DNA from: Xanthomonas arboricola pv. guizotiae
Lineage (GTDB): Bacteria; Pseudomonadota; Gammaproteobacteria; Xanthomonadales; Xanthomonadaceae
Assembly (NCBI RefSeq): GCF_002940205.1
Contig: NZ_MDSK01000025.1
Coordinates: forward strand, 1-64,000
Direction: 5' to 3'
Length of the DNA stretch: 64,000 nt
Both the position numbers and the translations under genes were made by a program. Every line of letters starts with the position of its first letter. The first letter of the stretch is position 1. The notes beneath the pieces are model-generated. The model was not told where the DNA came from. It did not search any database and was given only the letters and a program-made list of their open reading frames with translations. Below, piece after piece: positions 31,701 through 64,000 of this stretch.

Positions 31701-33163
31701 GCGTAGGCAGCGGCAGTACCGCCGGCCCAGCCGCCGACGTTGCGGCCGGCAAAGTGCGCAAGCTCCGACTGCGCAGCGAGCGGGTTGTCTTGCGAGAGCA
31801 GCGTAGTAATTTTCTCGCCTGACTGTGTGGCGTCATACAGCGTGGCGGCTATGCCCACGGCACCCAGCGCACCGACCGTCGTTGCGCCGGGACGTTCGAG
31901 CAACGGCGGTGCATAGGGCATTATTTCCACGTTGGGCGTGCGTAACAGGCGAGCGGTCAACGTATCGCCTTCGGTTACTGCGGCATCGGCCACCTGCGCG
32001 GTGCGCTGCACCGACCGCGCGGCCTCTGCCATCGGTGCGAATGCGCTGCGCAGCGGCTCGGGCATCTGCGCGGGCTGGTGCACCACCTCGCCCGGCTGGG
32101 CATGGCGCGCATAGTCGGCGGTGAGTTGGTGCACCTGCCCGGCGAGCATGGCGCGGTCCATCTTCGGCGCGCTGCGGAACAGCGCGTTGCCCTCTTCGGA
32201 GCGATGAATCACGTTCATGCGCGCATCGGCCGGCTCGTGCATGCGCGGCAGCAACGGCTCGCTGAGCAGGCCGTTGTGGTAATCGGTCATCAGGTTGAGA
32301 CTGCGCGTACCCAGCCCACCGCGCAGATAACTGCCGCCGATGTCCGAATGCGCGCCGGCCACGGTGACATGCAGGAAGCGGCCGTCGTTGGACAGCCCAT
32401 GCGGCACGATCTGATCGACCGGAAACAAGCCGCGTCGCTCATGCGCGGCGCTGACCTGAAAGCCCGACACCACCGATGACGGCAGGCGTCGGTCGAACAA
32501 CTCCATGTAGCCAGTGGGCACCGGGTCGTACAGACCCACGCTCATCGGGGTCAGGCCGGGGGATTGGTGGTAGCGGTTGTAGCGAGGTAGCCCGTTTGCA
32601 TCAATGCCGCTGATGCCGCCCTTCGGATTGGGAATGCCACGCTCGTCGATCATGCGCGCCAACAATGGGACTTGACTGGCGCCACGGCTGAAACCTTCCA
32701 GATGGACAGCGATCTTGGCTTCTGGGTCTATCTTGAATATTTGCTGAGACTGCGTTCTCAACCGCTCATACATTTCCTCTGCGCGCGCCAGGCTGGTGCG
32801 GCCGGTGGCCCCATCGAGCGTCCGCGTCAGGAATTCGTCCTGGGTGCCGGCGCCTTCGATGTATTCGACGTGGAGGCGCTGTATACCTGAGTCCTTTAGG
32901 CTCTTGATTTGCTCTCTAAACTTGGCAACATTGGTGGCGTACAGCGGATCTTTGTCGGCATTGTTGCCGGTGCCATCCATCAGGCCGACGATCAGATAGG
33001 AGTGCGGGTCGGCACGGTCGAATAACTGCGGCACCTTGAAGCCATACAGGTGATGCGCCGCCTGTTCGTAGGTTTGCAGATGCTCCAGGGTGGCCCCGTA
33101 ATGCGACACGTCATCCAGCGGCAGGCCGTCTTCGCCCAACTGCAGAACGGTCTTCCTGTCCAT
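28781..33163 (-). CDS. large DUF2235 alpha/beta-hydrolase, candidate secreted effector with Gln-rich tail
   Basis: 1460 residues. The N-terminal DUF2235 domain shows DGTGNN (63-68), the nucleophile elbow GFSRG (Ser159), LYDPVPTG (211-218) and the histidine motif AGAHSDIGGSY (His272), matching type VI phospholipase-like (Tle1) enzymes. A middle region (about 440-860) contains small hydrophobic and YRNMDGQW-type modules. Then about 300 residues are Gln/Glu/Ala-rich heptads, with a Pro-rich linker, a short helical domain (DVDELLYAIDCKDELAIEQA) and a Gly-rich C-terminus. Start follows GAGGGAG. Export route (T6SS or T4SS) is not shown; no canonical signal peptide. The gene just upstream is a candidate immunity protein. 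Confidence 0.78.
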   Translation of the reverse strand: MDRKTVLQLGEDGLPLDDVSHYGATLEHLQTYEQAAHHLYGFKVPQLFDRADPHSYLIVGLMDGTGNNADKDPLYATNVAKFREQIKSLKDSGIQRLHVEYIEGAGTQDEFLTRTLDGATGRTSLARAEEMYERLRTQSQQIFKIDPEAKIAVHLEGFSRGASQVPLLARMIDERGIPNPKGGISGIDANGLPRYNRYHQSPGLTPMSVGLYDPVPTGYMELFDRRLPSSVVSGFQVSAAHERRGLFPVDQIVPHGLSNDGRFLHVTVAGAHSDIGGSYLRGGLGTRSLNLMTDYHNGLLSEPLLPRMHEPADARMNVIHRSEEGNALFRSAPKMDRAMLAGQVHQLTADYARHAQPGEVVHQPAQMPEPLRSAFAPMAEAARSVQRTAQVADAAVTEGDTLTARLLRTPNVEIMPYAPPLLERPGATTVGALGAVGIAATLYDATQSGEKITTLLSQDNPLAAQSELAHFAGRNVGGWAGGTAAAYALGSSGAGPMVLIAADAYFLSAAGEKAAALLDSRAIYTQTDREGTQWSFNGTAWAREGKADTTNDGVDNPTAMPIVASYEKARELNYQATNAAAALALKDAPAPQDPYRQPANATDRPSLSSADWRRDAADGQWHRLVKAEISGANDRGSYVQETALPPRKAELDAQAQDVIARNIANSPGAIAARYELAHHRSGWAADGLPMSPAVQQALPDPDALIASDGQRYYRNMDGQWTSNGAPPDGNRVLELDTTRAMLQPALAEQAQAIAAIRQTPHDIQGEQTQYRYRIVGTELQPQWREAIELATQRTRQAEGLAGDGAMQLQRGPGGTFGADSPIAHLQRGPDGVERIAAVTSTEDIRQALQEVQAHQKPAVPVQQLAAGPRASDGSADADTSSSAPSSQHALDVQARGQAASAAQERQERQREDQQAQEQQLAQARAHTLQEQAAHEDRSQDAQALQVHALQELRQHGSQQLEQQERQVQEAQQREHVQRQAHETEQREQAQQQAQETQRREQQTRQAQDAQQSQQERLQAQTVQHAEQPLLHAQATQQRGQEPAQEAVSRAPPSLHAQDTSPRQPEQRSTQDDVAQRRQEQLAEAVQAHASDVAQQRPQSQHTQEERLQEVQQPTAQTAAIAQTAPADQKQVADLHSGQQSITAQAWDAQQPAHPADARLAQAAIAPSAPSLATPLAAEHRDDQQALTPKAQAPEAPDPPAALPLPVHLAQEAKASREMPTAGRSADTPEDAADRREPLSASLADEHDRPAAVPADPNSWEEIARSMRELRIQLEQDLETEDRIAEARQARVDRGERPFTELELRDGYDPDGPSGLRPPRTPPPDTAPQSLAAGEHEDRPQPQRKTITGDPDVDELLYAIDCKDELAIEQALKRVANSPYSQALAKQGHEFLDAQAMQEAQEQASMRQALNMDVSTEVQTSRGPVMVMTLPQFANNPAMQGGPQGDGGGGGDGGGGGGGGG
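30786..31008 (-). repeat. parent copy of the effector segment duplicated at 33847-34068
   Basis: This part of the effector gene, encoding WTSNGAPPDGNRVLELDTTR onward to QWREAIELATQRT, recurs upstream with only a handful of changes (for example D/E, H/Q and Q/L substitutions). It is the intact partner of an orphan fragment 2.8 kb away on the same strand. Confidence 0.85.
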
Positions 33164-33176
33164 ATCGAGCGCTCCC

Positions 33177-33737
33177 TCAGTAGGTCTTAGTCCAGGCCAG
33201 GATCAATTCATCACGGCTGATTTTTATGAGCGGATCGCGCTCGGGGTCCGCCAGGTGCTTGGTCAGGACATCGGCCCGCATATAGACATTGATCGTGCGG
33301 TCGTTGACTTCCAGCAAGATGTAAACGTGATGCCGCCCGTTTGCCGAATAGCCATAGATCAAGAAGAATTCATCTACGTCTTCCCTGGCAACACTGTGCA
33401 GAATCACATGGCCGGGAAAGATCGCTTCAAGGTCGATTTCGGCATGGCGATCTATGCCGTCCAGTGCCGTCCAATGGATATCGACCGTACTGGGAAAGCC
33501 GCGCGTCTCGAACTCTTCGGTGCTGCCGAAGCTACCGGTCCAGTTGTCTTTCCATTCTGGCCGGGGGGGGGGGCCAGAAGGCTTATGCAGATAATTGGAG
33601 TGCTGCTGCCGAGCAAAGACAATGCTGCACCGGATGACGTGATAGCAGCGCGCATCGAACGAATAGCTATCAAACCGCAATGGCCATGGCTCGCCCGGCT
33701 TTTTTCTTGCCAGATGCAGATTAGGGATGTTGAACAT
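33177..33737 (-). CDS. putative immunity/partner protein of the DUF2235 effector (DUF2931-like)
   Basis: 186 residues from ATG 33737; the start at 33788 lacks support. It ends 13 bp before the effector start, so the two are co-transcribed with this gene first. Features are a Trp/Arg-rich N-terminal half (PWPLRFDSYSFDARCY), PSTVDIHWTALDGIDRHAEI and HHVYILLEVNDRTINVYMRA, resembling the DUF2931 family found beside phospholipase effectors. No signal peptide or lipobox is visible, which is odd for a periplasmic phospholipase inhibitor. Codon 73-75 (Pro-Pro-Pro) lies in an 11-base C/G homopolymer, so the reading frame could switch by slippage. Confidence 0.62.
   Translation of the reverse strand: MFNIPNLHLARKKPGEPWPLRFDSYSFDARCYHVIRCSIVFARQQHSNYLHKPSGPPPRPEWKDNWTGSFGSTEEFETRGFPSTVDIHWTALDGIDRHAEIDLEAIFPGHVILHSVAREDVDEFFLIYGYSANGRHHVYILLEVNDRTINVYMRADVLTKHLADPERDPLIKISRDELILAWTKTY
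33563..33573. repeat. G(11) homopolymer inside the putative immunity gene
   Basis: Eleven consecutive G on the plus strand (C on the coding strand) encode the end of Gly, Pro-Pro-Pro and the first base of Arg. At 11 bases the frame is open; any change not a multiple of three would truncate the protein. Tracts of this length commonly vary by slipped-strand mispairing. Confidence 0.9.
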
Positions 33738-33830
33738 GTCGGCAGACTCCGTGTCGAAGGGCGCAAGCGCGAAGAGAGTGAGTACCAACTACAGCGCTTT
33801 CGGCCGAATATAGCAAAGCAGGCTCGTCCG

Positions 33831-49533: not shown

Positions 49534-50486
49534 GCCTGCAGGCCATCACCGTCACGCTGAACCCGGCCATCGACCAGACCATCCAGCTCGACCACCTGCA
49601 ACCGGGCGCCGTGCACCGCGCCAGCAGCGTGCGCAACGATGCCGGCGGCAAGGGCATCAACGTGGCCGCCTGCCTGGCCGACTGGGGCAGCCAGGTCGCC
49701 GCGCTGGGCGTGCTCGGGGTCGGCAATGCCGGCGTGTTCGAAGCGCTGTTCCGCGAGCGCGGCATTGCCGATCACTGCCAGCGCGTGGCCGGCGAGACCC
49801 GCACCAACCTCAAGCTGGTCGACGCGCGCAGCAACGACACCACCGACATCAACCTGCCCGGCCTGCGCCTGGGCCCGCCGCATCTGCAAGGTGTGGCCGA
49901 TCACCTTGCGCCGCTGCTGCGCCCCGGCCTGCCGGTGGTGCTGTCGGGCAGCCTGCCGGCCGGGCTGCCGGACGACAGCTGGGCGCAGCTGCAGGCCCAG
50001 GCCAGCGCCGCCGGTGCGCGCGTGCTGCTGGACACCAGTGGCGCGCCGCTGGTGGCCGCACTCGGCGCCGCACGCCAGGCGCTGCCCTACGCGGTCAAGC
50101 CGAACCGGCACGAACTGGAAGCCTGGACCGGCCGCCCGCTGAGCGACCGCGCCGCCCTCAGCGCCGCCGCGCACGAGCTGATCGCACGCGGCATCCAGCT
50201 GGTGGTCATTTCGATGGGCACCGAGGGCGCGCTGTTCGTGCAGCGCGACCAGCGCCTGATCGCGCGTCCGCCGCGGCTGGCGCAAGGCAGCAGCGTGGGC
50301 GCCGGTGACGCGATGGTGGCCGGCCTGGCCGCCGCGCTGCTCGGCGAGTCCACCGATCTGGAAAGTTGCGCACGGCTGGCGACCGCGTTCTCGGTCAGCC
50401 GGCTGGAAAGCGGCGATGCGCGCCGGCTGATCCCGCAGCAGGTACGCAAGCTCGCCGACGAGATCGTCATCGACCCGCTCTCGTAG
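49530..50486 (+). CDS. fruK: 1-phosphofructokinase
   Basis: 318 residues, PfkB family. Converts fructose 1-phosphate to fructose 1,6-bisphosphate. Hallmarks are TLNPAIDQTI at the N-terminus, NDAGGKGINVAACLADWG (substrate-binding), VVLSGSLPAGLP, the VKPNRHELEAWTG segment and the catalytic anion-hole motif GSSVGAGDAMVAGL. Its start overlaps the fruB stop by 4 bp. Product of this enzyme feeds glycolysis, and its substrate is the likely FruR inducer. Confidence 0.96.
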   Translation: MSLQAITVTLNPAIDQTIQLDHLQPGAVHRASSVRNDAGGKGINVAACLADWGSQVAALGVLGVGNAGVFEALFRERGIADHCQRVAGETRTNLKLVDARSNDTTDINLPGLRLGPPHLQGVADHLAPLLRPGLPVVLSGSLPAGLPDDSWAQLQAQASAAGARVLLDTSGAPLVAALGAARQALPYAVKPNRHELEAWTGRPLSDRAALSAAAHELIARGIQLVVISMGTEGALFVQRDQRLIARPPRLAQGSSVGAGDAMVAGLAAALLGESTDLESCARLATAFSVSRLESGDARRLIPQQVRKLADEIVIDPLS

Positions 50487-50599
50487 CACCACCGCCGGCG
50501 CGAACGCTGGCGGTGCCAGCGCAGCGCGCCGGTGTTTTGTGCAAGACACCACGTATCCCGCCGGCGTTTGCCGGCGACCGAACAACGCAGGAGATTTGC

Positions 50600-52342
50600 A
50601 TGTCCTCTTCCATCGTGGTCATCGCCGCTGGCGACCGCAGCACCGAAGCCGTCCTGGCGGCCGAAGCGCTGCGCCGCGCGGCCACCGCCGCCGGGCGCAG
50701 CGTGACGATCGAGATCCGCAGCGACCAGGGCGTGCTCGGCGCATTGCCGGGCGAACTGGCCAGCGCCGCCAGCCAGGTGCTGGTGATCGGCGACGCCGAT
50801 GCCGACACCGCCCGCTTCGGCGACGCGCAGCTGCTGCGCCTGAGCCTGGGCGCGGTGCTGGACGACCCGGCCGCCGCAGTGAACCAGCTCGTCGCACCGG
50901 CCGCCGCCAATGCATCGGCTGCCGCAGCCAGCGCAGGCGCCAGCAGCAAGCGCATCGTTGCGATCACCTCCTGCCCCACCGGTATCGCGCACACCTTCAT
51001 GGCCGCCGAAGGCCTGCAGCAGGCCGCCAGGAAACTCGGCTACCAGATCCGCGTGGAAACCCAGGGCTCGGTGGGCGCGCAGGATGCCCTGACCGACGCG
51101 GAAATCCGCGATGCCGATCTGGTGCTGATCGCCGCCGATCGCGAGGTCGACCTGGCCCGCTTCGGCGGCAAGCGCCTGTTCAAGAGCGGCACCAAGCCGG
51201 CGATCAACGATGGCCCGGCGCTGATCAACAAGGCCCTGGCCGAGGCGAGCGTGCACGGCGGCGCAACGCCAGTTGCCGGCCCCGCTGCCAGCGCCACCGC
51301 GAGCAAGGGCAACACCCGCACCGGCGCCTACAAGCACCTGATGACCGGGGTGTCGTTCATGCTGCCGTTCGTGACTGCCGGCGGGCTGCTGATCGCGCTG
51401 GCCTTTGCGCTGGGCGGCATCTATGCCGGCGACGACACGCATCAGGGCACCTTGGCCTGGTCGCTGTTCCAGATCGGCGCCAAGGCCGGCTTTACCCTGA
51501 TGGTGCCGGCGCTGGCCGGCTATATCGCCTACTCCATCGCCGACCGCCCCGGCATCGCGCCCGGCATGATCGGCGGGCTGGTCGCAGCCAACCTCAACGC
51601 CGGTTTTCTCGGCGGGATCATCGCCGGCTTCATCGCCGGCTACGGCGTGGCCGCGCTCAACCGCTACATCAAGCTGCCGCGCAACCTGGAAGGGCTCAAG
51701 CCGGTGCTGATCCTGCCGGTGCTGGGCACGCTACTGGTCGGGTTGGCGATGATGTACGTGTTCGGGCAACCGGTGGCCGATCTGCTGGCCTGGCTCACCG
51801 CCTGGCTGCGCGGCATGCAGGGCAGCAGCGCGCTGCTGCTGGGCCTGTTGCTCGGCGGCATGATGGCCTTCGACATGGGCGGGCCGGTCAACAAGGCCGC
51901 CTATGCGTTTTCCACCGGCCTGATCGCCAGCCAGGTCTACACCCCGATGGCCGCCGCCATGGTGGCCGGCATGACCCCGCCGCTGGGCATCGCGCTGGCC
52001 ACCTGGGTGTTCCGCAACCGTTTCACCGTGGAAGAACGCGGCTCGGCCACGGCCGCCGGCGTGCTCGGGCTGGCCTTCGTCACCGAAGGCGCCATCCCGT
52101 ATGCCGCGCGCGACCCGCTGCGCACCATCCCGGCGCTGGTGATCGGCTCGGCCGTGGCCGGCGCGATCTCGATGACCGCCGGTGCCGAGCTGAAGGCACC
52201 GCACGGCGGCATCTTCGTGCTGCTGATCCCCAACGCGGTGACCCACCTGCTCAATTACGTGCTGGCCCTGGTGGTCGGCGTGGTGGTCACCGCGGTGGCA
52301 CTGCGCCTGCTCAAGAAGCCGGTGGCCGATGTGGTCGCCTGA
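50600..52342 (+). CDS. fruA: fructose PTS EIIBC permease
   Basis: 580 residues. An N-terminal EIIB'-like domain (1-105) lacks the active cysteine; the functional EIIB (about 115-215) has phospho-Cys125 in TSCPTGIAHTFMAAEGL; EIIC (about 240-580) is the membrane channel (MTGVSFMLPFVTAGGLLIAL and FDMGGPVNKAAYAF, VTEGAIPYAARDP). ATG 50600 follows AGGAG. Imports fructose as fructose 1-phosphate using phosphate from FruB. The 113-bp gap after fruK makes it the last PTS gene before the porin. Confidence 0.96.
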   Translation: MSSSIVVIAAGDRSTEAVLAAEALRRAATAAGRSVTIEIRSDQGVLGALPGELASAASQVLVIGDADADTARFGDAQLLRLSLGAVLDDPAAAVNQLVAPAAANASAAAASAGASSKRIVAITSCPTGIAHTFMAAEGLQQAARKLGYQIRVETQGSVGAQDALTDAEIRDADLVLIAADREVDLARFGGKRLFKSGTKPAINDGPALINKALAEASVHGGATPVAGPAASATASKGNTRTGAYKHLMTGVSFMLPFVTAGGLLIALAFALGGIYAGDDTHQGTLAWSLFQIGAKAGFTLMVPALAGYIAYSIADRPGIAPGMIGGLVAANLNAGFLGGIIAGFIAGYGVAALNRYIKLPRNLEGLKPVLILPVLGTLLVGLAMMYVFGQPVADLLAWLTAWLRGMQGSSALLLGLLLGGMMAFDMGGPVNKAAYAFSTGLIASQVYTPMAAAMVAGMTPPLGIALATWVFRNRFTVEERGSATAAGVLGLAFVTEGAIPYAARDPLRTIPALVIGSAVAGAISMTAGAELKAPHGGIFVLLIPNAVTHLLNYVLALVVGVVVTAVALRLLKKPVADVVA

Positions 52343-52527
52343 CCTTCGGCCACCTCGCCATTGCCGCGTGCCGTCCGCGCATGCGCCACGCCTGACCGCC
52401 GCCCCACTCCACCCCTGACCGGTTTCACCGCTGGGCTGCGCACCTTCGTGCGCGGCCGGCGGCTTGCCCATCCCCTAGCTGTCGCGTTCGCCACCCGGCC
52501 ACGCCTTCCTTCGTTCGGAGTCCTGCC

Positions 52528-53805
52528 ATGACCGTCCTCGCCCCCCGCCATGCCCGTCCCCGCCTGCTGTGCCTGTCGCTGGCGCTGGCGCTGACCCCGC
52601 TCGCCCACGCGCAGGACGCCGCCGATGCCTTCAAGCTCAAGCTGGGTTACACCGGCGAAGCCGCATCGATGATCGATGGCGGCCGCAAGAACGGCGACGC
52701 CTATGCCGGCCAGCTGATGGTCGGTACCGATGTCGACATGGACCGCCTGTTCGGCTGGGGCGGCGCCACGGTCAAGCTGCAGGTCTCCAACCGTCATGGC
52801 ACCAACCTGGCCAACAGCAGCATCGGCAACAGCACCTCGGTGCAGGAAATCTACGGCGGCCAGGGCACGCGGCTGGCCAACTTCACCCTGCTGCAGAAGC
52901 TGTTCGACGACCGCCTGGAACTGGAAGCCGGCCGCAGCGTGGCCAACATCCACTTCCTCGGCTCGGACCTGTGCCAGTACTTCCAGGGCAACTCGGCCTG
53001 CGGCAACCCCACCTTCGTGTTCCGCACCAGCAACTTCACCTACTGGCCTGTTTCCAGCTGGGCCGCGCATGCCACCGCCTGGGTCACGCCCAAGGTCTAC
53101 GTGCATGTGGGCGCCTACGAGGTGAACCCGGTGCAGGCCCAGGACGGCCAGCACGGCCTGAAGTGGAGCACCGACGACACCACCGGCGTGGTGGTGCCGT
53201 ATGCCATCGGCTACAAGAACAAGGGCGGCGACGGCAGCATGGCCGCGATGTACGAACTGGGCGGCTGGCAGGACAACTCCGACTACACCGACCCGCTGCG
53301 CGACCGCAACGGCAACCCCGCCGTGCTCAGCGGGCTGGACTACGACAACAAGCAGGGCCGCTCGGGCGTGTTCGCCCGCTTCGAACAGCAGGTCACCAAC
53401 CCGGATCCGTCCGGCAGCCGCGGCCTGACCGTGTTCGGCGCCATCCTCAAGAGCACCGGCGGCCAGGCGATCGAGGACCATTTCGTGCAACTGGGCCTGG
53501 TGCAGAAGGGCACCTTCGCCAGCCGCCCGCAGGACAACATCGCCTTCGTGATCACCCAGCAGAAGTACAGCGACGAGGCGATCGAAAACCTGCGCCTGGC
53601 GCGCGCCTCCGCTGGCGGCACCGGCACCCCGGCCGACAACCAGATCATGATGGAGCTGAGCTACGGCATCCAGGTCACCAAGCGCCTGCGCATCGCCCCG
53701 AACCTGCATTACGTGATCAACCCCGACCAGTTCAACGAACCCACCCGCAGCAACGATCTGAAGAACGCGCTGATCGCGGGCATGCGGATCGACTGGAATC
53801 TGTGA
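52528..53805 (+). CDS. carbohydrate-selective porin, OprB type
   Basis: 425 residues. Signal peptide (LCLSLALALTPLAHA) cleaved about residue 28. The mature protein is beta-barrel: alternating strands, GKKNG-like turns and a C-terminus ALIAGMRIDWNL typical of OprB porins. GWGGATVKLQVSNRHGTNLA and NFTLLQKLFDDRLELEAGR are characteristic of the family. A 185-bp gap separates it from fruA and it shares the direction, so it probably supplies fructose across the outer membrane as part of the same regulon. Confidence 0.9.
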   Translation: MTVLAPRHARPRLLCLSLALALTPLAHAQDAADAFKLKLGYTGEAASMIDGGRKNGDAYAGQLMVGTDVDMDRLFGWGGATVKLQVSNRHGTNLANSSIGNSTSVQEIYGGQGTRLANFTLLQKLFDDRLELEAGRSVANIHFLGSDLCQYFQGNSACGNPTFVFRTSNFTYWPVSSWAAHATAWVTPKVYVHVGAYEVNPVQAQDGQHGLKWSTDDTTGVVVPYAIGYKNKGGDGSMAAMYELGGWQDNSDYTDPLRDRNGNPAVLSGLDYDNKQGRSGVFARFEQQVTNPDPSGSRGLTVFGAILKSTGGQAIEDHFVQLGLVQKGTFASRPQDNIAFVITQQKYSDEAIENLRLARASAGGTGTPADNQIMMELSYGIQVTKRLRIAPNLHYVINPDQFNEPTRSNDLKNALIAGMRIDWNL

Positions 53806-53832
53806 TCCGGCACCAGTAAGTACGTTTCCATA

Positions 53833-53858
53833 GCGACGCCTGCAATGCAGGCCGTCGC
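53833..53858 (+). terminator. terminator-like hairpin after the porin gene
   Basis: GCGACGCCTGC and GCAGGCCGTCGC pair with a one-base bulge around a short loop, 28 bp beyond the porin stop. A T-rich CTTTTTGG follows about 30 bp downstream rather than directly, so it is a weak or structural terminator. It ends the fructose regulon. Confidence 0.6.
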
Positions 53859-54114
53859 TCGCATTGCCCTGGGTCTGGCTCTGGCTTTTTGGCTATTGCC
53901 ATGCACTTGCCTTTTCCCGCTTTGCGCGGCCCGATACCGAATAACACCACTTAGGGGAATCGACGATCATTCCTAGACAATGTTCCCACTTTCGTTTTTT
54001 CGCCTGAAGAATTTTGAAATTGCGCGACATAACTTCGGGGCGGCGCAAGATCTGTGAAAAACCGTAGATAGGCTCAACGACGTGTGTTTCAGCAGCTGTG
54101 GAAGGATAACGGAC
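53859..54114. other. AT-richer upstream region of the halogenase-like cassette
   Basis: Noticeably richer in A and T than the fru locus or sec genes (for example TTCGTTTTTTCGCC near 53993 and TGAAGAATTTTGAAATTG near 54005). It must hold the promoter of the halogenase-like gene. A 43-codon ORF at 53845-53976 overlaps the preceding hairpin and has no ribosome-binding site. No operator recognised. Confidence 0.45.
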
Positions 54115-55995
54115 ATGACCTCAACTGCGGCACACCACTATCCGCCTAAATCCAATCAAATCGTCGTCATCGGTGCAGGCATCATCGGGCTGACAAATGC
54201 GCTTCAGTTGGCCAAGCGCGGCCTAAGTGTCACGCTGATCGACAATCTGCAAGAGCGCAGACACAGCTTCAAGGTAGGCGAATCCTTTCTGGTCTTTACC
54301 AGCGCATTCTTGCGCACCATCGGCGAATTGGACACGTTTCTCACCGAGCGATCGTTCATCAAGCTCGGCGTCTGGTTCAGCGCTGGCGCCGAGCACCGTC
54401 ACGATTTCGGCGAGACCACAGAATGGGCCGTGAATGCAGATCCGCACCCACCTCACTATCTGTATGACCTGGCCCCCGACAAGAAATGGTTTCGCTGCAT
54501 GTTTCTGGACATGCAAATCGTAAGACCAGAAGCCGAAGCGGTCATGCTCGATGCGGTACGTGAACACCCGAACATCACCTTGATCGACAACGTGCGTATC
54601 CGCAAGGTGGTGCTCGCCGAGGACGACGGACCGCACCTGATGCATTGGCAAGGCCAGGGTTGCGATGGAAGGATCGATACGCGGTGGCTGGTGGATTGCT
54701 CGGGGCGCAGCCGGCTATTGACCAGGCAGCAGGGACATACCGCAGAGAAGCACGAAGAGCGCGATGGATTCCAGACCACCGCCATCTGGGGCCAGTTCGA
54801 ACATGCGGGAGATGCCGTGTTCGATGCTCGTTGGCATTGCTTGCTGCAGGACGGGCGATCGACGCCTCGCGATCTGTATACCGTGCACCTATGGGGGCGC
54901 GGCTACTGGATCTGGGTGATCCGCCTGTCTCAGGATCGTATTAGCGTTGGCGTGACTTTCGACCAGCGCACCCCACCGGAAGGCGCAACACCTGCCGAGA
55001 AATTCTGGAATCTGATCCGGCGCTATCCGTTGCTGGAGGGCATCATCAACGAACAGACACTGCTCGAGCTGCAGACCTTCCGCAACGTCCAGCATTGGAC
55101 CGACACTTTCGTAAGCACGCGTCGCTACGCGATGGCCGGAGACTCGGCAAGCATCATTGATGCCTATTACAGCCAGGGCATGGCGCTTGGCATGGTGACC
55201 AGCTGGCACATCGCCAATGTGGTGCAACGCGACGTGCTCGATCAGCATCTCGACCGGGGCTATATCGAGAGAATCAATCATGCCACCCGCCAGGACTGGC
55301 ACATGTTGCGCAACATGGTGCACCACAAATACTCCCCGGCCATCGAGGATTCACGCTTCTTCCTGCTGTCGCACATGCTGGATATGGCGGTGTTCTGGTG
55401 CATGGGCAGCACGCGTTCGGCGTTGACGCATTGGCTCGTGCAGACCGAAGGTCAATCCTCGCGTGAAACCGCCCAGCTGCGCCGTCTGCGGCAGCGACTG
55501 GAATCGCGTTTGTTCTACTCGCGCTCGCCCTATTGGCTATGGCTGTCGCCAGAACGGGTGCAGCGACTGCAGGCGCATCTGCAACGTCAGCTCGCCAGGC
55601 GCGCACGTTGGCGTCAGGACAACGGCATCAGGCTACCGCGTGTCACCAGTTTCCTCAGCCTGACGGCTCCGTTGCCGCGTGTCTGGAAGCTGTTTGGCGG
55701 CGCAAAGGCTGGCCATATCGACGTCAGCGCACGCGACCTCGTGCAACCTGCGGAACAGCGGCCAGCTGGCAGCGCGACATGGTTCGACCGGCTGCCCATA
55801 TCCCCCATGACACGTCTCGGCTGGGTTATCCGGCTGCGTCCATTGGGATTATTGCTGCAGTTTGCGCTCTGCTATGCGTGGGACGCCGCTGAGACGCGGA
55901 TACGCAGAGGCTGGCGCGGCGTCAATCGCGTCCACGCTGCTGTTGACGACGTGCAATCAACTCCGCAGGACGCACAAGAACGGAGCGTGCCTTGA
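54115..55995 (+). CDS. flavin-dependent halogenase-like FAD oxidoreductase
   Basis: 626 residues, start ATG 54115 after AAGGA. FAD fold GAGIIG (20-25), the GES motif 55-57 where halogenases have GEA, DCSGRSR (194-200), a WIWVIR motif (265-270) and the FAD-binding AGDSASIIDAYYSQGMAL (341-358). In flavin halogenases the signature is WxWxIP; here the last residue is Arg, so true halogenation versus another hydroxylation or oxidation cannot be decided. A long C-terminal extension with Arg-rich helices ends in a possible membrane-associated segment (LRPLGLLLQFALCYAW). It is followed by the ATP-grasp ligase one base later, suggesting a two-gene biosynthetic operon. Confidence 0.78.
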   Translation: MTSTAAHHYPPKSNQIVVIGAGIIGLTNALQLAKRGLSVTLIDNLQERRHSFKVGESFLVFTSAFLRTIGELDTFLTERSFIKLGVWFSAGAEHRHDFGETTEWAVNADPHPPHYLYDLAPDKKWFRCMFLDMQIVRPEAEAVMLDAVREHPNITLIDNVRIRKVVLAEDDGPHLMHWQGQGCDGRIDTRWLVDCSGRSRLLTRQQGHTAEKHEERDGFQTTAIWGQFEHAGDAVFDARWHCLLQDGRSTPRDLYTVHLWGRGYWIWVIRLSQDRISVGVTFDQRTPPEGATPAEKFWNLIRRYPLLEGIINEQTLLELQTFRNVQHWTDTFVSTRRYAMAGDSASIIDAYYSQGMALGMVTSWHIANVVQRDVLDQHLDRGYIERINHATRQDWHMLRNMVHHKYSPAIEDSRFFLLSHMLDMAVFWCMGSTRSALTHWLVQTEGQSSRETAQLRRLRQRLESRLFYSRSPYWLWLSPERVQRLQAHLQRQLARRARWRQDNGIRLPRVTSFLSLTAPLPRVWKLFGGAKAGHIDVSARDLVQPAEQRPAGSATWFDRLPISPMTRLGWVIRLRPLGLLLQFALCYAWDAAETRIRRGWRGVNRVHAAVDDVQSTPQDAQERSVP

Positions 55996-55996
55996 G

Positions 55997-56950
55997 ATGA
56001 CTGCCAAGCCGCAGACTGCAATTTACCTCAGTCTGGGTGCGCCGCATCTGGAGTATCCGGCAGCGGTTCAAGCGTTGCGCTTACGTGGGGTGCAGGCACG
56101 CATGGTGCACTTGAACGAGATCGACAACGTGGATTTGCGCGGCGTTGATCTCATCAACGTCCGCATGTGTCGCTGGTACCACAAGCACCGCGGATTCCTG
56201 AATCAGATAGAACGCCTGCACCAGCGTGTGCAGGATCTTCCCGAAGGACCGATTCCGTTCGCCAACGACATCGCGCTGATCCGCGATGCGCTCGACAAAG
56301 GTCTGTATCTGCGCAAACTAGGCGACTCAGGGATCGACCTGATCCCCACCTGCTGGGTTGAGCGCGGCGCGCCGCTGCGCATCCAGGAGCTCATGCAAGA
56401 AACCGGCTGGGACGACATCGTCATCAAACCGACCGTTTCCTCCGGTTCGTGGAGAACCATCCGCCTTTCTCGAGGCGGCAGAAGCAGTTCCAAGAGTCAC
56501 TACGTGCTTGGAGAAGACACCGAACGCTATACGGCAATCCTGTCCAGGTTATTGAAAACCCACAGCATCTTCGTGCAGCGCTTCGAGCCTTCGATACTCG
56601 AGTTCGGCGAGCTTTCCTTCGTATTTCTTGGCGGGCACTTCAGCCACGCGGTCCGCAAGACCGTCGGCGATCAGGGCGGCTGGTGGGCGCACGAGCGTCT
56701 GGGAGGCCGTAATCAGCCGTGGCGTGCGGGCCGCGAAGAACTGAACTGGGCCCAGCACATCCACGACACCTTGGTACACCGCTACGGCTGGCTGTGGTTC
56801 GATCGCATCGATGCACTTCATGATCGGGACGGCCGACTCCAGTTGCTGGAATGCGAACTGGCTATTCCGCGCTTGCTTCTACCCGAGGGACAGGCGTTCG
56901 ATCGCTATGCTCAGGTCATCGCCGACGGCATCCAGCGCACCGCGGCGTAA
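55997..56950 (+). CDS. ATP-grasp ligase (RimK/glutathione synthetase-like)
   Basis: 317 residues, cytoplasmic. ATG 55997 follows the upstream stop by one base, so it is translationally coupled. ATP-grasp elements in order: Lys144 in DDIVIKPTVSSGSWR (ATP-lid strand), the FVQRFEPSILEFGELS segment (Glu205), HAVRKTVGDQGGW, and metal-binding acidic pair E285/E287 in LLECELAIP. The last matches the ELE variant of small glutathione-synthetase-like ligases used in amino-acid or peptide natural products. It would join a carboxylate to an amine or thiol via acyl phosphate; substrate unknown but presumably the flavoenzyme's product or precursor. Confidence 0.8.
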   Translation: MTAKPQTAIYLSLGAPHLEYPAAVQALRLRGVQARMVHLNEIDNVDLRGVDLINVRMCRWYHKHRGFLNQIERLHQRVQDLPEGPIPFANDIALIRDALDKGLYLRKLGDSGIDLIPTCWVERGAPLRIQELMQETGWDDIVIKPTVSSGSWRTIRLSRGGRSSSKSHYVLGEDTERYTAILSRLLKTHSIFVQRFEPSILEFGELSFVFLGGHFSHAVRKTVGDQGGWWAHERLGGRNQPWRAGREELNWAQHIHDTLVHRYGWLWFDRIDALHDRDGRLQLLECELAIPRLLLPEGQAFDRYAQVIADGIQRTAA

Positions 56951-56955
56951 CCAAG

Positions 56956-57090
56956 GTATTCATGCTGGTGGGCTTGGCGATCTACCTTGCGTTCCGTTTT
57001 GAGCGGAAGTTTGCGGCGGTCGCCAGCCTGACCGCGTTGTTCGCTCTATTGGTCATCGTGGCCTTCTTGTCGCTGACCGGTCGCGATTTC
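56956..57090 (+). pseudogene. inverted secF fragment at the island edge
   Basis: Reads VFMLVGLAIYLAFRFERKFA through LSLTGRDF, 45 residues of which 36 match residues 152-196 of the intact SecF encoded on the opposite strand (57640-57774). There is no start, and it begins 5 bp after the ATP-grasp stop. It is followed by a Gln-rich reading stretch (QQQQALEQQRQWQLQQELSL, from 57099) of unknown origin. Together these look like debris from a rearrangement that placed the cassette beside secF. Confidence 0.85.
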
Positions 57091-57206
57091 TGCACACGCA
57101 GCAGCAACAGGCGTTGGAACAACAACGACAATGGCAGTTGCAGCAGGAGCTGAGCTTGCAGCAAGAGTGCGGGCGACTGGCCGCACAGGAAAAACCCGTG
57201 CGGCAA

Positions 57207-57239
57207 ACGAAAAAACCGCGGAGCGCGCGGTTTTTTCGT
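57207..57239. terminator. bidirectional terminator between the island and secF
   Basis: A perfect 14-bp inverted repeat (57207-57220 with 57226-57239; CCGCG next to six A on the left and CGCGG followed by six T on the right) gives T-runs on both strands. It ends the minus-strand sec operon 20 bp after the secF stop and can also stop transcripts arriving from the cassette. A second 6-bp hairpin lies at 57181-57203. Confidence 0.9.
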
Positions 57240-57258
57240 CAGACACCCACTGGCTGCA

Positions 57259-58227
57259 TCAAGGACGGCGCGCCAGCGCCTCCACGTCCTTGGCCTTGGG
57301 CAGCAGATCCTGCTTGGTGACGGCAAACGGCCCGATGCTCAGCATCGGCACTGCCACGATCACCGAGGAGATCACCACGATCACCGCGCCGATCATGTGC
57401 GTCTCGGCCAGGCCTTCCATCGACTCGCCGCCGTAGATGTACAACGCCAGCGCCGACAGGAAGAACATCACCGCGGTGATCACCGTGCGCGACAGCGTCT
57501 GGTTGATCGAACGGTTCAACACTTCCAGCGGCTCCACGCGCAGTGCGCGGAAGTTCTCGCGTACGCGGTCGAACACCACGATGATGTCGTTGATCGCAAA
57601 GCCCATCACCGACAACAGGCCGGCCAGCACGGTCAGGTCGAACTCGCGGCCGGTCAGCGACACGAAGGCCACGGTGACCAGCAGGTCGAACAAGGCGGTC
57701 AGGCTGGCGACTACCGCGAACTTCCACTCGAAGCGGAAGGCGATGTAGATCAGAAAGCCCACCAGCATGAACACGGTGGCGTACACACCGTTCAAGGCCA
57801 GGTCCTTGCCGACCTGCGGGCCGACGAACTCGCCCGGCTGCACGGTGGCGGGGTTCTGCTCAGTGCTGACCGCCTTGCGCACTTCTTCGGCGACGCTGCT
57901 TGCGGCATCGTCGCGATTGTTGTGCTGCTCGCGTGCCTGCAGGCGGATCATCACTTCGTTGCCGCCGCGCGCGTTCTGCACCTGGGCGTTCTCGAAGCCG
58001 GCCCTGGCCAGCTGCTCGCGCACCTGATCCACGTCCACGGTCTTCTGGAACGAGGTCTGCACCAGCGTGCCGCCGGTGAATTCCAGCGCGTAGTTGAAGC
58101 CCTTGCCGACGATGACGCCGACCGAGGCCACCGCGATCACCAGCATCAGGATCAGCACCGGCTTGCGCAGGCGCATGAAGTCGATCTTGGTGTCGTTGGG
58201 AATGAGATGGAGCGGGAACAATTTCAT
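57259..58227 (-). CDS. secF: protein translocase subunit SecF
   Basis: 322 residues, six-TM inner-membrane protein that, with SecD and YajC, uses the proton gradient to help complete Sec-dependent secretion. The first periplasmic domain starts after TM1 (YALEFTGGTLVQTSF) and the C-terminal RND-like core contains FMLVGFLIYIAFRFEWKFAV, AGLLSVMGFAINDIIVVFDR and VRENFRALRVEPLEVLNRSI. Ends just before the bidirectional terminator. Part of it is copied, inverted, at 56956-57090. Confidence 0.96.
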   Translation of the reverse strand: MKLFPLHLIPNDTKIDFMRLRKPVLILMLVIAVASVGVIVGKGFNYALEFTGGTLVQTSFQKTVDVDQVREQLARAGFENAQVQNARGGNEVMIRLQAREQHNNRDDAASSVAEEVRKAVSTEQNPATVQPGEFVGPQVGKDLALNGVYATVFMLVGFLIYIAFRFEWKFAVVASLTALFDLLVTVAFVSLTGREFDLTVLAGLLSVMGFAINDIIVVFDRVRENFRALRVEPLEVLNRSINQTLSRTVITAVMFFLSALALYIYGGESMEGLAETHMIGAVIVVISSVIVAVPMLSIGPFAVTKQDLLPKAKDVEALARRP

Positions 58228-58339
58228 GGAAAAGATCTTCCGTTTAGACGTTGCGCACCGTCAGGATGCGCAACGCTTGCGAAGGGATTCATCCCCTACC
58301 CCAGCAGCGCGCTGCAAGGGGCAAGGCCGGACTCGCATC

Positions 58340-60184
58340 TCAGATGGCGACGGTCTTCAGCTTCTTGCGGCGGCCGTAGATCAGCACCGCCAGCGCACGC
58401 GACACGGTGATCGCGGTGAACATCGAGGCGAAGATACCGATCATCATGGTCAGCGCGAAGCCCTTCAGCGGGCCGGTGCCGAACGCGTACAAGGCCACCG
58501 CCACGATCAGACCGGTGAGGTTGGCGTCCAGGATGGTGCCGCCGGCCTTTTCATAACCGGCGGCAATCGCCGATTTGGCCGGCACGCCCAGGCGCAGCTC
58601 TTCGCGGATACGCTCGTTGATCAGCACGTTGGCGTCCACCGACAGGCCCACCGACAAGGCCAGACCGGCAAACCCCGGCAGCGTCATGGTGGCGCCGAAC
58701 AGGGACATCACCGCCACCACGATCAGCAGGTTGAACAGCAGCGCCACCGAGGTGATCGCGCCGAACACGCGGTAGTAGACGGTGAAGAACACCAGCGTGA
58801 ACAGGAACGAGTAGATCACCGCGGTGACGCCGCGCTCCACGTTCTCCGCACCCAGGCTCGGGCCGATCACGTATTCCTCGACGAAATCCATCGGTGCGGC
58901 CAGCGAACCGGATTTCAGCAGCTTGGCCAGGTTCTCGGCCTCGGTCTTCTCCAGGCCGGTGGTCTGGAAGTTCTTGCCGAACACGCCGGCGATGCGGGTC
59001 GGCGACAGTGCCTCTTCCTTGACCCGCACGCTGCGCACTTCCTTGCCGTCGACCATCGTCACGGTGGGAATGCGCTCGATGTAGACCACCGACATCAGCT
59101 TGCCGACATTGGCGCTGGTGTAGTCGAGCATGCGCTGGCCGGCGACGTTGTTGAGCGTCACCGCCACCGCCGGCATGCCGTTCTGGTCGGTGCTGACGCT
59201 GGCGCTGACCATCTGGTCGCCGGTCACCAGCGCGCGCTTGTTGAGCAGCACCGGCGCGCCGGTATCGCGCACGCGGTAGACCTTGGCTTCGGGCGGGATG
59301 CTGCCGCTGCGCACGGCGTCTTCGGCATTGCCTTCGACCACCGCGCGGAACTCCAGCGAGGCGGTGGCGCCGATCAGGCGCTTGGCCTCGGCGGTGTCCT
59401 GCAGGCCGGGCAGCTCGACCACGATGCGGTCCTCGCCCTGGCGCTGGATGGTCGGTTCGGACACGCCCAGCGCGTTGACGCGGTTGCGCAAGGTGGTGAG
59501 GTTCTGCTCGATCGCGCCGCTGGCGATCTGCTTGAGTTCGGCCTCCGGCACCTTGACCGAGATGGTCTGGCCGCTGACGTCGTAGGTCAGGGTCGGCTGC
59601 GACTTGGCCAGCGCGGTGCGCGCGGCGTCGACGCTGGCGCCTTCGCTCAGGCTGACCTGGATGCTGTTGTCGCCGCGGCGCTCGACCGAGCGATAGGCGA
59701 TACGGCCATCGCGCAGCGTGGTGCGGATGTCTTCGGCAAAGCCGTCCAGGCGCTTTTCCAGCGCGGCCTTCTGGTCCACCTGCATGGCGAAGTGCACGCC
59801 GCCGACCAGGTCCAGGCCCAGCACCATCGGCCGGCCGCCCAGCTTGGCCAGCCAGTCCGGCACGGTCGAGGCCAGATTCAGCGCCACCGTGTAGTTTTCG
59901 CCCAGTTGCTGGCGCAGCACGTCGTTGGCGCGGGTCTGTGCCTGCAGGTTGGGCAGGCGCACCATCAGGCTGTCGCCTTCGCGGGTGACCGCCTTCGGCG
60001 TGATGCCGGCGGCCTTGAGGTCGGCGTCGATGCGGCTGCGCAAGGCGTCGTCCAGCTGGGCACCGCGGCTGGCGGTGATCTGCACGGACGGGTCCTTCTG
60101 GTAGATGTTGGGCAACGCGTACAACGCGCTGACCGCCAGCACCAGCAGGATCAGGAAATACTTCCAGCGAGGAAATTCGAGCAT
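58340..60184 (-). CDS. secD: protein translocase subunit SecD
   Basis: 614 residues from ATG 60184 (MLEFPRWKYFLILLVL); the frame to 60208 adds eight unlikely residues. The large P1 periplasmic domain begins after TM1, with GLDLVGGVHFAMQVDQKAAL and ELPGLQDTAEAKRLIG, followed by the membrane core FALTMMIGIFASMFTAITVS and NLTGLIVAVALYAFGTGPLK. Works with SecF, which follows after 112 bp, in the inner membrane. Confidence 0.96.
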   Translation of the reverse strand: MLEFPRWKYFLILLVLAVSALYALPNIYQKDPSVQITASRGAQLDDALRSRIDADLKAAGITPKAVTREGDSLMVRLPNLQAQTRANDVLRQQLGENYTVALNLASTVPDWLAKLGGRPMVLGLDLVGGVHFAMQVDQKAALEKRLDGFAEDIRTTLRDGRIAYRSVERRGDNSIQVSLSEGASVDAARTALAKSQPTLTYDVSGQTISVKVPEAELKQIASGAIEQNLTTLRNRVNALGVSEPTIQRQGEDRIVVELPGLQDTAEAKRLIGATASLEFRAVVEGNAEDAVRSGSIPPEAKVYRVRDTGAPVLLNKRALVTGDQMVSASVSTDQNGMPAVAVTLNNVAGQRMLDYTSANVGKLMSVVYIERIPTVTMVDGKEVRSVRVKEEALSPTRIAGVFGKNFQTTGLEKTEAENLAKLLKSGSLAAPMDFVEEYVIGPSLGAENVERGVTAVIYSFLFTLVFFTVYYRVFGAITSVALLFNLLIVVAVMSLFGATMTLPGFAGLALSVGLSVDANVLINERIREELRLGVPAKSAIAAGYEKAGGTILDANLTGLIVAVALYAFGTGPLKGFALTMMIGIFASMFTAITVSRALAVLIYGRRKKLKTVAI

Positions 60185-60370
60185 TGCGACAGTCCCGCGC
60201 GACACCATCCCGGCGCCGCGCCTAGCAGTGAGAACGACTTCAGGCGGCCAACACAGCGTCGCCAGCGGTCGTCAGGTGGATGCGGCGGTGCCGCGCAGCG
60301 GCGCGCCCAGCGCCGGTTCGCGGCACCGACTGCGCCCACCCGACAGTGAGCGCAGCGGGTCGGTTGCCGC

Positions 60371-60724
60371 TTAGTTGGCAGACTTCAGCGTGCCCTTGGG
60401 CAGCACGTGGCCCACGGCACTCTTCTGCACGCGGATGCGCACGTTGTCGGCCACTTCCACGGTGATGAAGTTGTCGCCGATGTCGGTGATCACGCCCGCC
60501 ACGCCGCCGGAGGTGATGACTTCGTCGCCGCGCGCCAGCTTGTCCAGCAGCGACTTGTGCTCCTTCTGGCGCTTCATCTGCGGGCGGATCATCAGGAAGT
60601 ACATGACCGCGATCAGGATGATCGGCAGCGCGAAGGTGGACAGGCCGCCCATCGGGCCGGGCGCCGGCGCGCCGCCAGTGGCCTGCGCCTGGGCGACGGG
60701 GATCAGGAAATCGAGCAGATTCAT
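60371..60724 (-). CDS. yajC: preprotein translocase subunit YajC
   Basis: 117 residues, single-pass inner-membrane protein. TM segment FALPIILIAVMYFLMIRPQM followed by the conserved cytoplasmic KRQKEHKSLLDKLARGDEVI and TSGGVAGVITDIGDNFITVE. A 186-bp gap precedes secD, and it follows tgt, matching the conserved queA-tgt-yajC-secD-secF order. Confidence 0.95.
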   Translation of the reverse strand: MNLLDFLIPVAQAQATGGAPAPGPMGGLSTFALPIILIAVMYFLMIRPQMKRQKEHKSLLDKLARGDEVITSGGVAGVITDIGDNFITVEVADNVRIRVQKSAVGHVLPKGTLKSAN

Positions 60725-60855
60725 TCAGTGCATCCTAGTTTGGGTGCCAGCGCGCCAACCGGCCGCTCGCTATTCAGGTACCGCCGGAGCGGAACAGCCG
60801 GGAATTATGCCATGCAGGCTCCAAACCGTCCGCGCAAGGGCGCGAACGGCCGGTC

Positions 60856-63161
<2,306 letters not shown>

Positions 63162-63206
63162 GGCCGCAGGATCGTTGGCGGAGTAGCCGCATATTGTAAC
63201 TGCGGC

Positions 63207-63320
63207 GGGGAATTGAGAATCGGGAATGGGTAATCGCAACGGCACCAGCGCTTCATCGGCGCAGATTCCGCCCCCGATTCGCTGCTCTTGCGATTCCCTA
63301 TTCCCGATTCTCCATTCACC
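63207..63320. repeat. second inverted GAATCGGGAATGGG-type repeat, upstream of queA
   Basis: gagaatcgggaatgggtaat (around 63214) pairs with gcgattccctattcccgatt (around 63290). It separates queA from the Lrp gene and just overlaps the 3' end of the latter. Confidence 0.78.
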
Positions 63321-63747
63321 GCTCGAATTTCGTCGACAAAATGATCGACGTCGTCGTGCGCTCCACGCCGTCGATCGCGCCGATGGCGTCGGTGAGCACG
63401 TCCATCTCGTTGACGCCGCCGACCACGCCCAGGGCGATCAGGTCGTAGGCGCCGCTGACCGAGTGCAGCAGGCGCACCTGGGGGATGTCGCGCAGCGCCT
63501 TGACCACGGCCGGCATCTTCTTGGGCAGCACGGTGATCAGGATATGCGCGCGGATGCGGCCCTGTTCGTAGGCGTCATGGGTGCGCACGGTATAGCCGCT
63601 GATCACGCCGTCGCGTTCGAGTTTTTCGATCCGGCTCTGCACGGTGGTGCGCGACAGCCCGAGCCGGCGCGCAATCTGCGCGGTGGAGGCGCGCGCGTCC
63701 TCGCGCAGCAGCGACAGCAGGCGTTCGTCGGAGGGAGTGATTTTCAC
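63316..63747 (-). CDS. Lrp/AsnC family transcriptional regulator
   Basis: 143 residues. The N-terminal winged helix is [20 protein letters not shown] then [20 protein letters not shown]; the C-terminal RAM (ligand-binding) domain contains [20 protein letters not shown] and the usual beta-alpha-beta-beta pattern. The gene is divergent from the one starting at 63869, with a strong palindrome in between, so it probably controls that neighbour and itself in response to an amino acid. Confidence 0.92.
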
Positions 63748-63761
63748 TTTTGCCCAATTGG

Positions 63762-63778
63762 TTCGTCGATTCGACGAA
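63762..63778. promoter_or_regulatory. candidate operator of the Lrp-type regulator
   Basis: TTCGTCG-ATT-CGACGAA: perfect 7-bp arms with a 3-bp spacer, 15 bp before the regulator start and about 90 bp before the divergent gene. Location and symmetry fit an Lrp-type dimer site controlling both genes. Confidence 0.65.
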
Positions 63779-63868
63779 AATACCCGACTTCCTGCCCGAA
63801 TTCACGCTGCCAAACGCCGATCTTCTGCTGATAATAGGGAGGGAACGCCACCTTGCAGGAGATGCGCC

Positions 63869-64000
63869 ATGTCCGTCCTCGCCCCGCTCGCCCCGCTGCG
63901 TGCCCACGCCGGCCGCCGCCTGACCGATGGCCTGGACGACGCGACCATCGCGCGCCTGGCCGCCAACCACCCGGATCTTGCACGCGCCATCGACGCGGCG
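63869..64000 (+). CDS. 5' end of an unidentified gene, divergent from the Lrp regulator (cut by window end)
   Basis: ATG 63869 follows GCAGGAG at 63855-63861. The 44 visible codons (MSVLAPLAPLRAHAGRRLTD, then DDATIARLAANHPDLARA) show no signal peptide and no recognisable motif. By position it is the likely target of the Lrp-type regulator, which usually governs amino-acid metabolism, but the product cannot be named from this fragment. Confidence 0.7.
   Translation, partial: MSVLAPLAPLRAHAGRRLTDGLDDATIARLAANHPDLARAIDAA

Follow-up and report, generated by a model that had tools for sequence, protein, structure and literature searches.

A rare gene pair encoding a halogenase-like flavoprotein and a DcsG-like ATP-grasp ligase, with signs of horizontal spread, in Xanthomonas arboricola pv. 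guizotiae

In a 64,000-nucleotide stretch of the Xanthomonas arboricola pv. guizotiae genome (contig NZ_MDSK01000025.1, positions 1 to 64,000; the window), a gene for a flavoprotein of the halogenase superfamily lies directly ahead of a gene for a small ATP-grasp ligase (Table 1). The pair is a real unit and is rare. Our tentative reading, held at a little under even confidence, is that it forms a self-contained, carrier-free cassette of two enzymes that spread horizontally, in which the flavoprotein would halogenate a small molecule and the ligase would form an amide. For the flavoprotein step itself, halogenation is the assignment that we lean towards, at slightly short of an even chance, and oxygenation is a less probable one. 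The basis in hand consists of the families of the two proteins, their invariant residues, the pairing, the coding constraint, and the signs of horizontal spread.

Table 1. Features of the gene pair and its insertion site in the window
Feature	Position	Strand	Remarks
Island between the oprB and secF flanks, 3,395 bp	53810..57204	.	GC 59.0%, against 66.0% for the window
Flavoprotein gene, 626 aa, intact	54115..55995	+	Flavin-dependent halogenase superfamily (Pfam, PDB profiles)
GxGxxG FAD-binding motif, residues 20-25	54172..54189	+	Glycines invariant in 8/8 rows
Lys83, column of the conserved lysine of halogenases	54361..54363	+	K in 6/6 family and 33/33 outside rows; 8/8 in a family-only alignment
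Family-specific insert, around NADPHPPHYL to DKKWF	~54436..54498	+	Highly conserved in 8/8 family rows
WIWVIR, altered WxWxIP, residues 265-270	54907..54924	+	8/8 full-length family rows, window included
IIDAYYSQG, altered Fx.Px.Sx.G, residues 347-355	55153..55179	+	8/8 full-length family rows
ATP-grasp ligase gene, 317 aa, intact, DcsG-like	55997..56950	+	
ECELAIPR, acidic ATP-grasp signature	56849..56872	+	Invariant in 9/9 rows
Decayed inverted partial secF copy, 140 bp	56951..57090	+	Directly after the ligase stop codon; opposite orientation to the genus secF
Self-complementary stretch, looks like a two-way terminator behind island and secF	57207..57239	.	Reverse match in 32/33 genus loci

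The first-pass annotation had described a halogenase-like gene one base ahead of an ATP-grasp ligase gene, in an AT-richer island flanked by fru and sec genes. The coordinates confirm the one-base gap, with the TGA of the first gene ending at 55995 and the ATG of the second starting at 55997. The fru and sec flanks were likewise found from open reading frames read by eye, as were all flank gene names lacking a profile match; the immediate left flank of the island is oprB (OprB by Pfam). The GC content is 59.7% in the flavoprotein gene and 59.9% in the ligase gene, and the third-position GC is 71% and 72%, respectively, compared with 90-93% in oprB, most of the fru transporter, secF, and secD. 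The island is thus indeed AT-richer than the flanking genes. Twelve of 612 window tiles of the same length have a GC content at or below that of the pair, and the tiles within one GC point of it lie at the pair site, at ~31.8-35.7 kb, and at the left end of the window. This difference in composition points to a foreign origin. Another low-GC stretch, at window 28781-33788, contains a 1,460-aa open reading frame with a small one upstream; by eye, the former presumably encodes a DUF2235-type type VI secretion phospholipase effector.

The flavoprotein scored 37.3 bits against Pfam Trp_halogenase (PF04820), above the gathering cut-off of 21, and its best solved relatives by PDB profile matching were PltA (2.2e-14), CmlS (6.9e-14), and tetracycline 7-halogenase (1.8e-13). 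Its scores against the NCBIfam equivalog models for CmlS (NF033113) and QhpG (NF049967) were 58.6 and 49.4 bits, below the cut-offs of 900 and 240, and the GoxB and LodB models gave 31 and 28.7 bits against cut-offs of 400 and 400. The ligase scored 73.5 bits against DcsG (NF058666), for which the equivalog cut-off is 360. Profile searches had been proposed as a check; neither protein passed the cut-offs of the characterised families tested, and the pair was placed in no family with a known product.

Six family rows were then aligned with 33 outside relatives, comprising 19 orthologues from the genus, which count as one group, and 14 proteins from plasmids. The sixth residue of WxWxIP was P in all 33 outside rows and R in all six family rows. 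In the Fx.Px.Sx.G motif, F and P were each found in 32 of the 33 outside rows; inside the family, S and G are kept and F and P are lost. The family-specific insert was gapped in the seven outside relatives displayed, two of which keep a few residues. Of the halogenase signatures, the protein has GxGxxG, has the lysine by column match only, and lacks WxWxIP and Fx.Px.Sx.G. The Pfam score and the WIWVIR of all eight full-length members agree with the initial description of a halogenase-superfamily flavoenzyme with an altered WxWxIP. The catalytic lysines of PltA (K73) and CmlS (K71) coincide with Lys83 or are offset from it by a single residue; in the HMMER alignment, the CmlS lysine is the one with the offset. 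An AlphaFold model of the flavoprotein from seven sequences had a mean pLDDT of 47.6, too poor for tunnel or lysine geometry. A hydrophobic stretch near residue 568 scored 1.4, the threshold for a transmembrane segment being about 1.6.

The alteration of two halogenase signatures in all eight full-length members argues against the halogenase reading, as do the offset of Lys83 from the CmlS lysine and the fact that no conserved flavin reductase or regulator was seen with the pair. A less probable alternative keeps the cassette but has the flavoprotein act as a monooxygenase or oxidase: having lost the P of WxWxIP and the F and P of Fx.Px.Sx.G, it would let the substrate approach the flavin, to be hydroxylated or oxidised before or after ligation. 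According to passages in PMC8407142 and PMC10696468, WxWxIP has been suggested to shield the substrate from the flavin cofactor, preventing monooxygenation, and Fx.Px.Sx.G or its variants line the tunnel. The replacement of P by R in all eight members, set against the P of every outside row, is consistent with such an enzyme, as is a weak match to QhpG, a flavin monooxygenase (3.1e-13). In contrast, the lysine column and WxW are retained in all members, and a passage in PMC8407142 describes WxWxIP or its variants as missing from some accepted halogenases. The same source notes that GxGxxG occurs in almost all flavoenzymes, and a passage in PMC10696468 calls the function of certain WxWxIP residues unclear.

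The ligase has the ATP-grasp fold and is closest to DcsG, D-cycloserine synthetase, which was its best fold match; the microviridin-type ligases MdnC, AMdnB, and PsnB were among the lower Foldseek matches. Its signature, first noted as being of the ELE type, reads E-C-E within LLECELAIPR (ligase residues 283-292; the nine rows include the window), and we take this acidic signature to have a metal-binding role.

The ligase gene lies directly behind the flavoprotein gene, in the same order, in all eight other records found: Nocardia gamkensis, an Acidovorax MAG, Methylobacterium ajmalii, M. indicum, M. aquaticum, Pseudomonas rhizoryzae, Streptomyces flaveus, and Streptomyces sp. yr375. Since seven of these loci came from a scan of genome contigs with the flavoprotein alone (the M. 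aquaticum record came from plasmids), the pairing is more than chance. Conservation of the gene neighbourhood had also been proposed as a check; the pairing is kept in these distant bacteria and the surroundings are not. The best-segment identity to the window was 66-68% for the flavoprotein and 57-62% for the ligase, and the M. ajmalii and M. aquaticum copies are nearly identical at the pair locus. In yr375 (L029 7701-8861), the part encoding flavoprotein residues 1-328 was not found, and the ligase gene is intact. The pairwise identities of the two proteins were correlated (r = 0.94, 28 pairs from eight records, Mantel p = 0.0001, computed for the partners only), as expected for a unit moving together. 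For five pairs each, dN/dS was 0.14-0.25 for the flavoprotein and 0.11-0.29 for the ligase; these low values are rough, several dS being large or near saturation, and indicate coding constraint in the family. In the fetched flanks, no carrier protein or NRPS conserved beside the pair was seen, as the first-pass annotation had held for the window; no flavin reductase or regulator conserved with the pair was seen, and no third gene was common to all copies.

The pair shows several signs of what may have been horizontal transfer. The flanks differ from genus to genus; the one exception is secDF, found near the Acidovorax copy as well as near that of the window. SecD is 43% identical between these two, whereas the flavoprotein is 67% and the ligase 57% identical, and a pair more alike than SecD is expected for transfer. 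At the Nocardia locus, two transposase pieces above the Pfam cut-off lie on one side of the pair, and one piece below the cut-off lies on each side. The 1-kb flanking DNA gave only a few matches between genera (~32-36 bp, E 0.002-0.007); longer matches occurred between the two Streptomyces or among Methylobacterium. The M. aquaticum copy is on a 1.57-Mb plasmid (L022, NZ_AP014705.1) typed as mobilizable, beside a mutS-like gene (by eye), and the same mutS-like gene (by eye) is found downstream in the M. ajmalii and M. indicum loci. The Acidovorax copy lies 2.8 kb behind secD-secF (L024 2195-5144), and the window copy abuts the secF piece and secF itself (window 57259-60208), which may reflect a preferred neighbour or chance.

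A protein search of 35 genus genomes found the ligase in that of the window alone; among the other 34, one is only 81% complete. In genome-set searches, in which only the top candidates per genome were scored (for example, five per genome), ligase relatives reached E 1e-40 solely in the seed genomes themselves: 2 of 392 in the Streptomyces set, 2 of 111 in the Methylobacterium set, 1 of 148 in Nocardia, 1 of 13 in the genus set of Pseudomonas rhizoryzae, and 1 of 299 in the Acidovorax family set. Among 369 genomes drawn from the class of the window, a family member occurred only in the window's genome, and six others had distant ligase relatives. A genome-contig scan with the ligase gave no match; because the flavoprotein scan found loci that contain the ligase, this does not speak for its absence. 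Around six distant DcsG-like ligases (L030-L035), no halogenase-like gene was recognised by eye within ~1.5 kb on each side. The gene table of a Vibrio ligase match contained no halogenase, and two other fetched ligase matches carried no annotation.

In both Streptomyces, an antiporter of the sodium/hydrogen-exchanger family lies directly behind the pair (L028 10989-12284 and L029 9958-11391). Plasmid loci were hand-picked (15 from 29 flavoprotein records), and the unannotated M. aquaticum and Caballeronia loci were left out; in 5 of the remaining 13, homologous antiporters (BLASTP) were found no more than ~4 kb from the flavin-halogenase-like gene, the PLSDB gene tables being incomplete. We also read 12 plasmid neighbourhoods around relatives of the Streptomyces antiporters, taken from 37 listed rows (of 123 and 138 records), several being near duplicates of each other. 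Three contained a named halogenase, and eight of the nine others looked biosynthetic by eye. Some of the antiporter's plasmid relatives lie beside halogenase and flavin reductase genes. Outside the 12, a listed antiporter row from S. xanthophaeus (H54) has a halogenase-like flavoprotein alongside. The antiporter is weakened as a marker of halogenation. With a named halogenase in only 3 of the 12 neighbourhoods, the context speaks more for secondary metabolism than for halide, and its support for halogenation is weak.

These surroundings also bear on an improbable alternative, a detoxification or catabolic cassette in which the flavoprotein would oxidise a plant or microbial compound and the ligase would conjugate it, giving tolerance. 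Such a role would suit a unit of just two genes that is patchy across phyla and sits beside unrelated genes, with no antiporter or other exporter common to the copies outside Streptomyces in the fetched flanks. In contrast, several outside relatives of the flavoprotein (others not) are found among genes of biosynthetic type (PKS, prenyltransferase, enediyne chromoprotein), and relatives of the Streptomyces antiporters mostly have such surroundings.

Very unlikely, in our view, is a role in peptide or protein maturation, with the flavoprotein modifying a side chain, as QhpG, LodB, and GoxB do, and the ligase crosslinking or extending, as microviridin ligases do. The matches to the QhpG, GoxB, and LodB models and the microviridin-type Foldseek matches would fit; against this, the three model scores are below their cut-offs and the best fold match is DcsG. 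Comparison of frames of at least 18 aa (BLASTP, E 1e-3, seg on) within 2 kb on each side at eight loci revealed no small open reading frame common to the genera, and a RiPP precursor was accordingly rejected.

The insertion site was compared with genus loci. In G003, whose secF region is the best match among the genus genomes, the same flanks are 272 bp apart (locus L070, 2726-2997). The pair was in none of the 16 genus loci that hold both the oprB and secF flanks, as determined by blastn against 19 and then all 33 fetched loci, the remaining 17 of which show the secF side only. The oprB-secF spacing differs among genus genomes, reaching ~5 kb (L080), indicating that the interval is a variable slot. 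The inverted partial secF copy is 75-86% identical to secF genes of the genus. Positions 57061-57197 are present at 93% identity in G007, beside the secF of that genome; part of the scar is therefore not unique to the window strain. Beyond the G007 secF (L112 2665-5434), in a stretch without the oprB flank, VirD4-like conjugation genes and a piece of an IS3-type transposase were recognised by eye, so the slot seems to receive mobile DNA of different kinds. The stretch at 57207-57239 was not among the three sites of a terminator scan, the count of which (3) equalled that in shuffles (3.0), and a promoter scan for the sigma-70 consensus only gave no site, against 0.9 in shuffles. An RNA or tRNA site was rejected after an empty Rfam search at gathering score (52400-57600) and an empty ARAGORN tRNA scan (50000-64000).

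The least probable account is that the pair is neutral or selfish passenger DNA that currently has no function in the window genome: this would fit the variable slot into which the pair is inserted, the broken secF piece there, the yr375 flavoprotein gene lacking its front half, and the absence of a promoter-like site in the sigma-70 scan, but both window genes are intact and the low dN/dS indicates constraint in the family. Phage cargo was rejected, as viral contigs held no relatives of either protein and phage records none of the ligase; against PHROGs, the flavoprotein gave weak matches only (best 0.00083; tryptophan-halogenase family 0.0011) and the ligase none. A defence system was rejected as well, PADLOC matching only flavoprotein residues 15-43 and nothing in the ligase.

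For the halogenating cassette that we favour, the following steps can be proposed. A flavin reductase of the host would supply reduced flavin to the flavoprotein, which would form a C4a-hydroperoxyflavin and with it oxidise halide to hypohalite. From there, Lys83 would deliver the hypohalite to a small substrate that is free and not carrier-bound. The DcsG-like ligase would use ATP to activate a carboxylate as an acyl phosphate, and attack by an amine, between two molecules or within one, would yield the amide; halogenation and ligation could occur in either order. Judging from their genus names, the carriers are presumably soil and plant-associated bacteria, and what the cassette makes is probably a small, diffusible compound with bioactivity; the spread over two phyla suggests that this product is useful. 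More speculatively, and rather doubtfully, flavoenzymes with WIWVIR and the fixed insert, together with a DcsG-like ligase, may form a separate class. It would rank with the smallest natural-product pathways that are complete, travel as a unit between Pseudomonadota and Actinomycetota, and yield an amide or lactam, halogenated or oxidised, of a new structural type. Because two genes are few enough for one-step expression in a laboratory host, the roles of WxWxIP and Fx.Px.Sx.G in halogenation or oxygenation could be tested on a natural variant in which the lysine is retained.

No description of the pair was found in the literature covered, which excludes preprints and most subscription papers. 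The flavoprotein resembles the flavin-dependent halogenases PltA, CmlS, and tetracycline 7-halogenase in its profile family, GxGxxG, lysine column, and WxW, and its alignment to CmlS extends to profile position 415. Unlike them, it has WIWVIR, IIDAYYSQG, the insert, and a ligase as its sole conserved neighbour. For every one of the other 34 genus genomes, the best match to the flavoprotein is a conserved halogenase-like protein of the genus, which in the 19 read has KVGES, a similar lysine segment, and 540 aa from a Met chosen by script, and which is 26-27% identical to the flavoprotein over aligned residues (two computed). This protein keeps WxWxIP and FLDPFYS in 19 of 19 read, whereas the flavoprotein does not; it lacks the insert in the two displayed, and those genomes have no ligase relative. 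Similarity to the maturases QhpG, LodB, and GoxB is weak, mostly partial, and far under the cut-offs, and no small open reading frame beside the pair was common to the genera. Unlike DcsG (PDB 6jil), the ligase, which scores far under the DcsG cut-off, has no third gene common to all copies and is paired with a flavoprotein.
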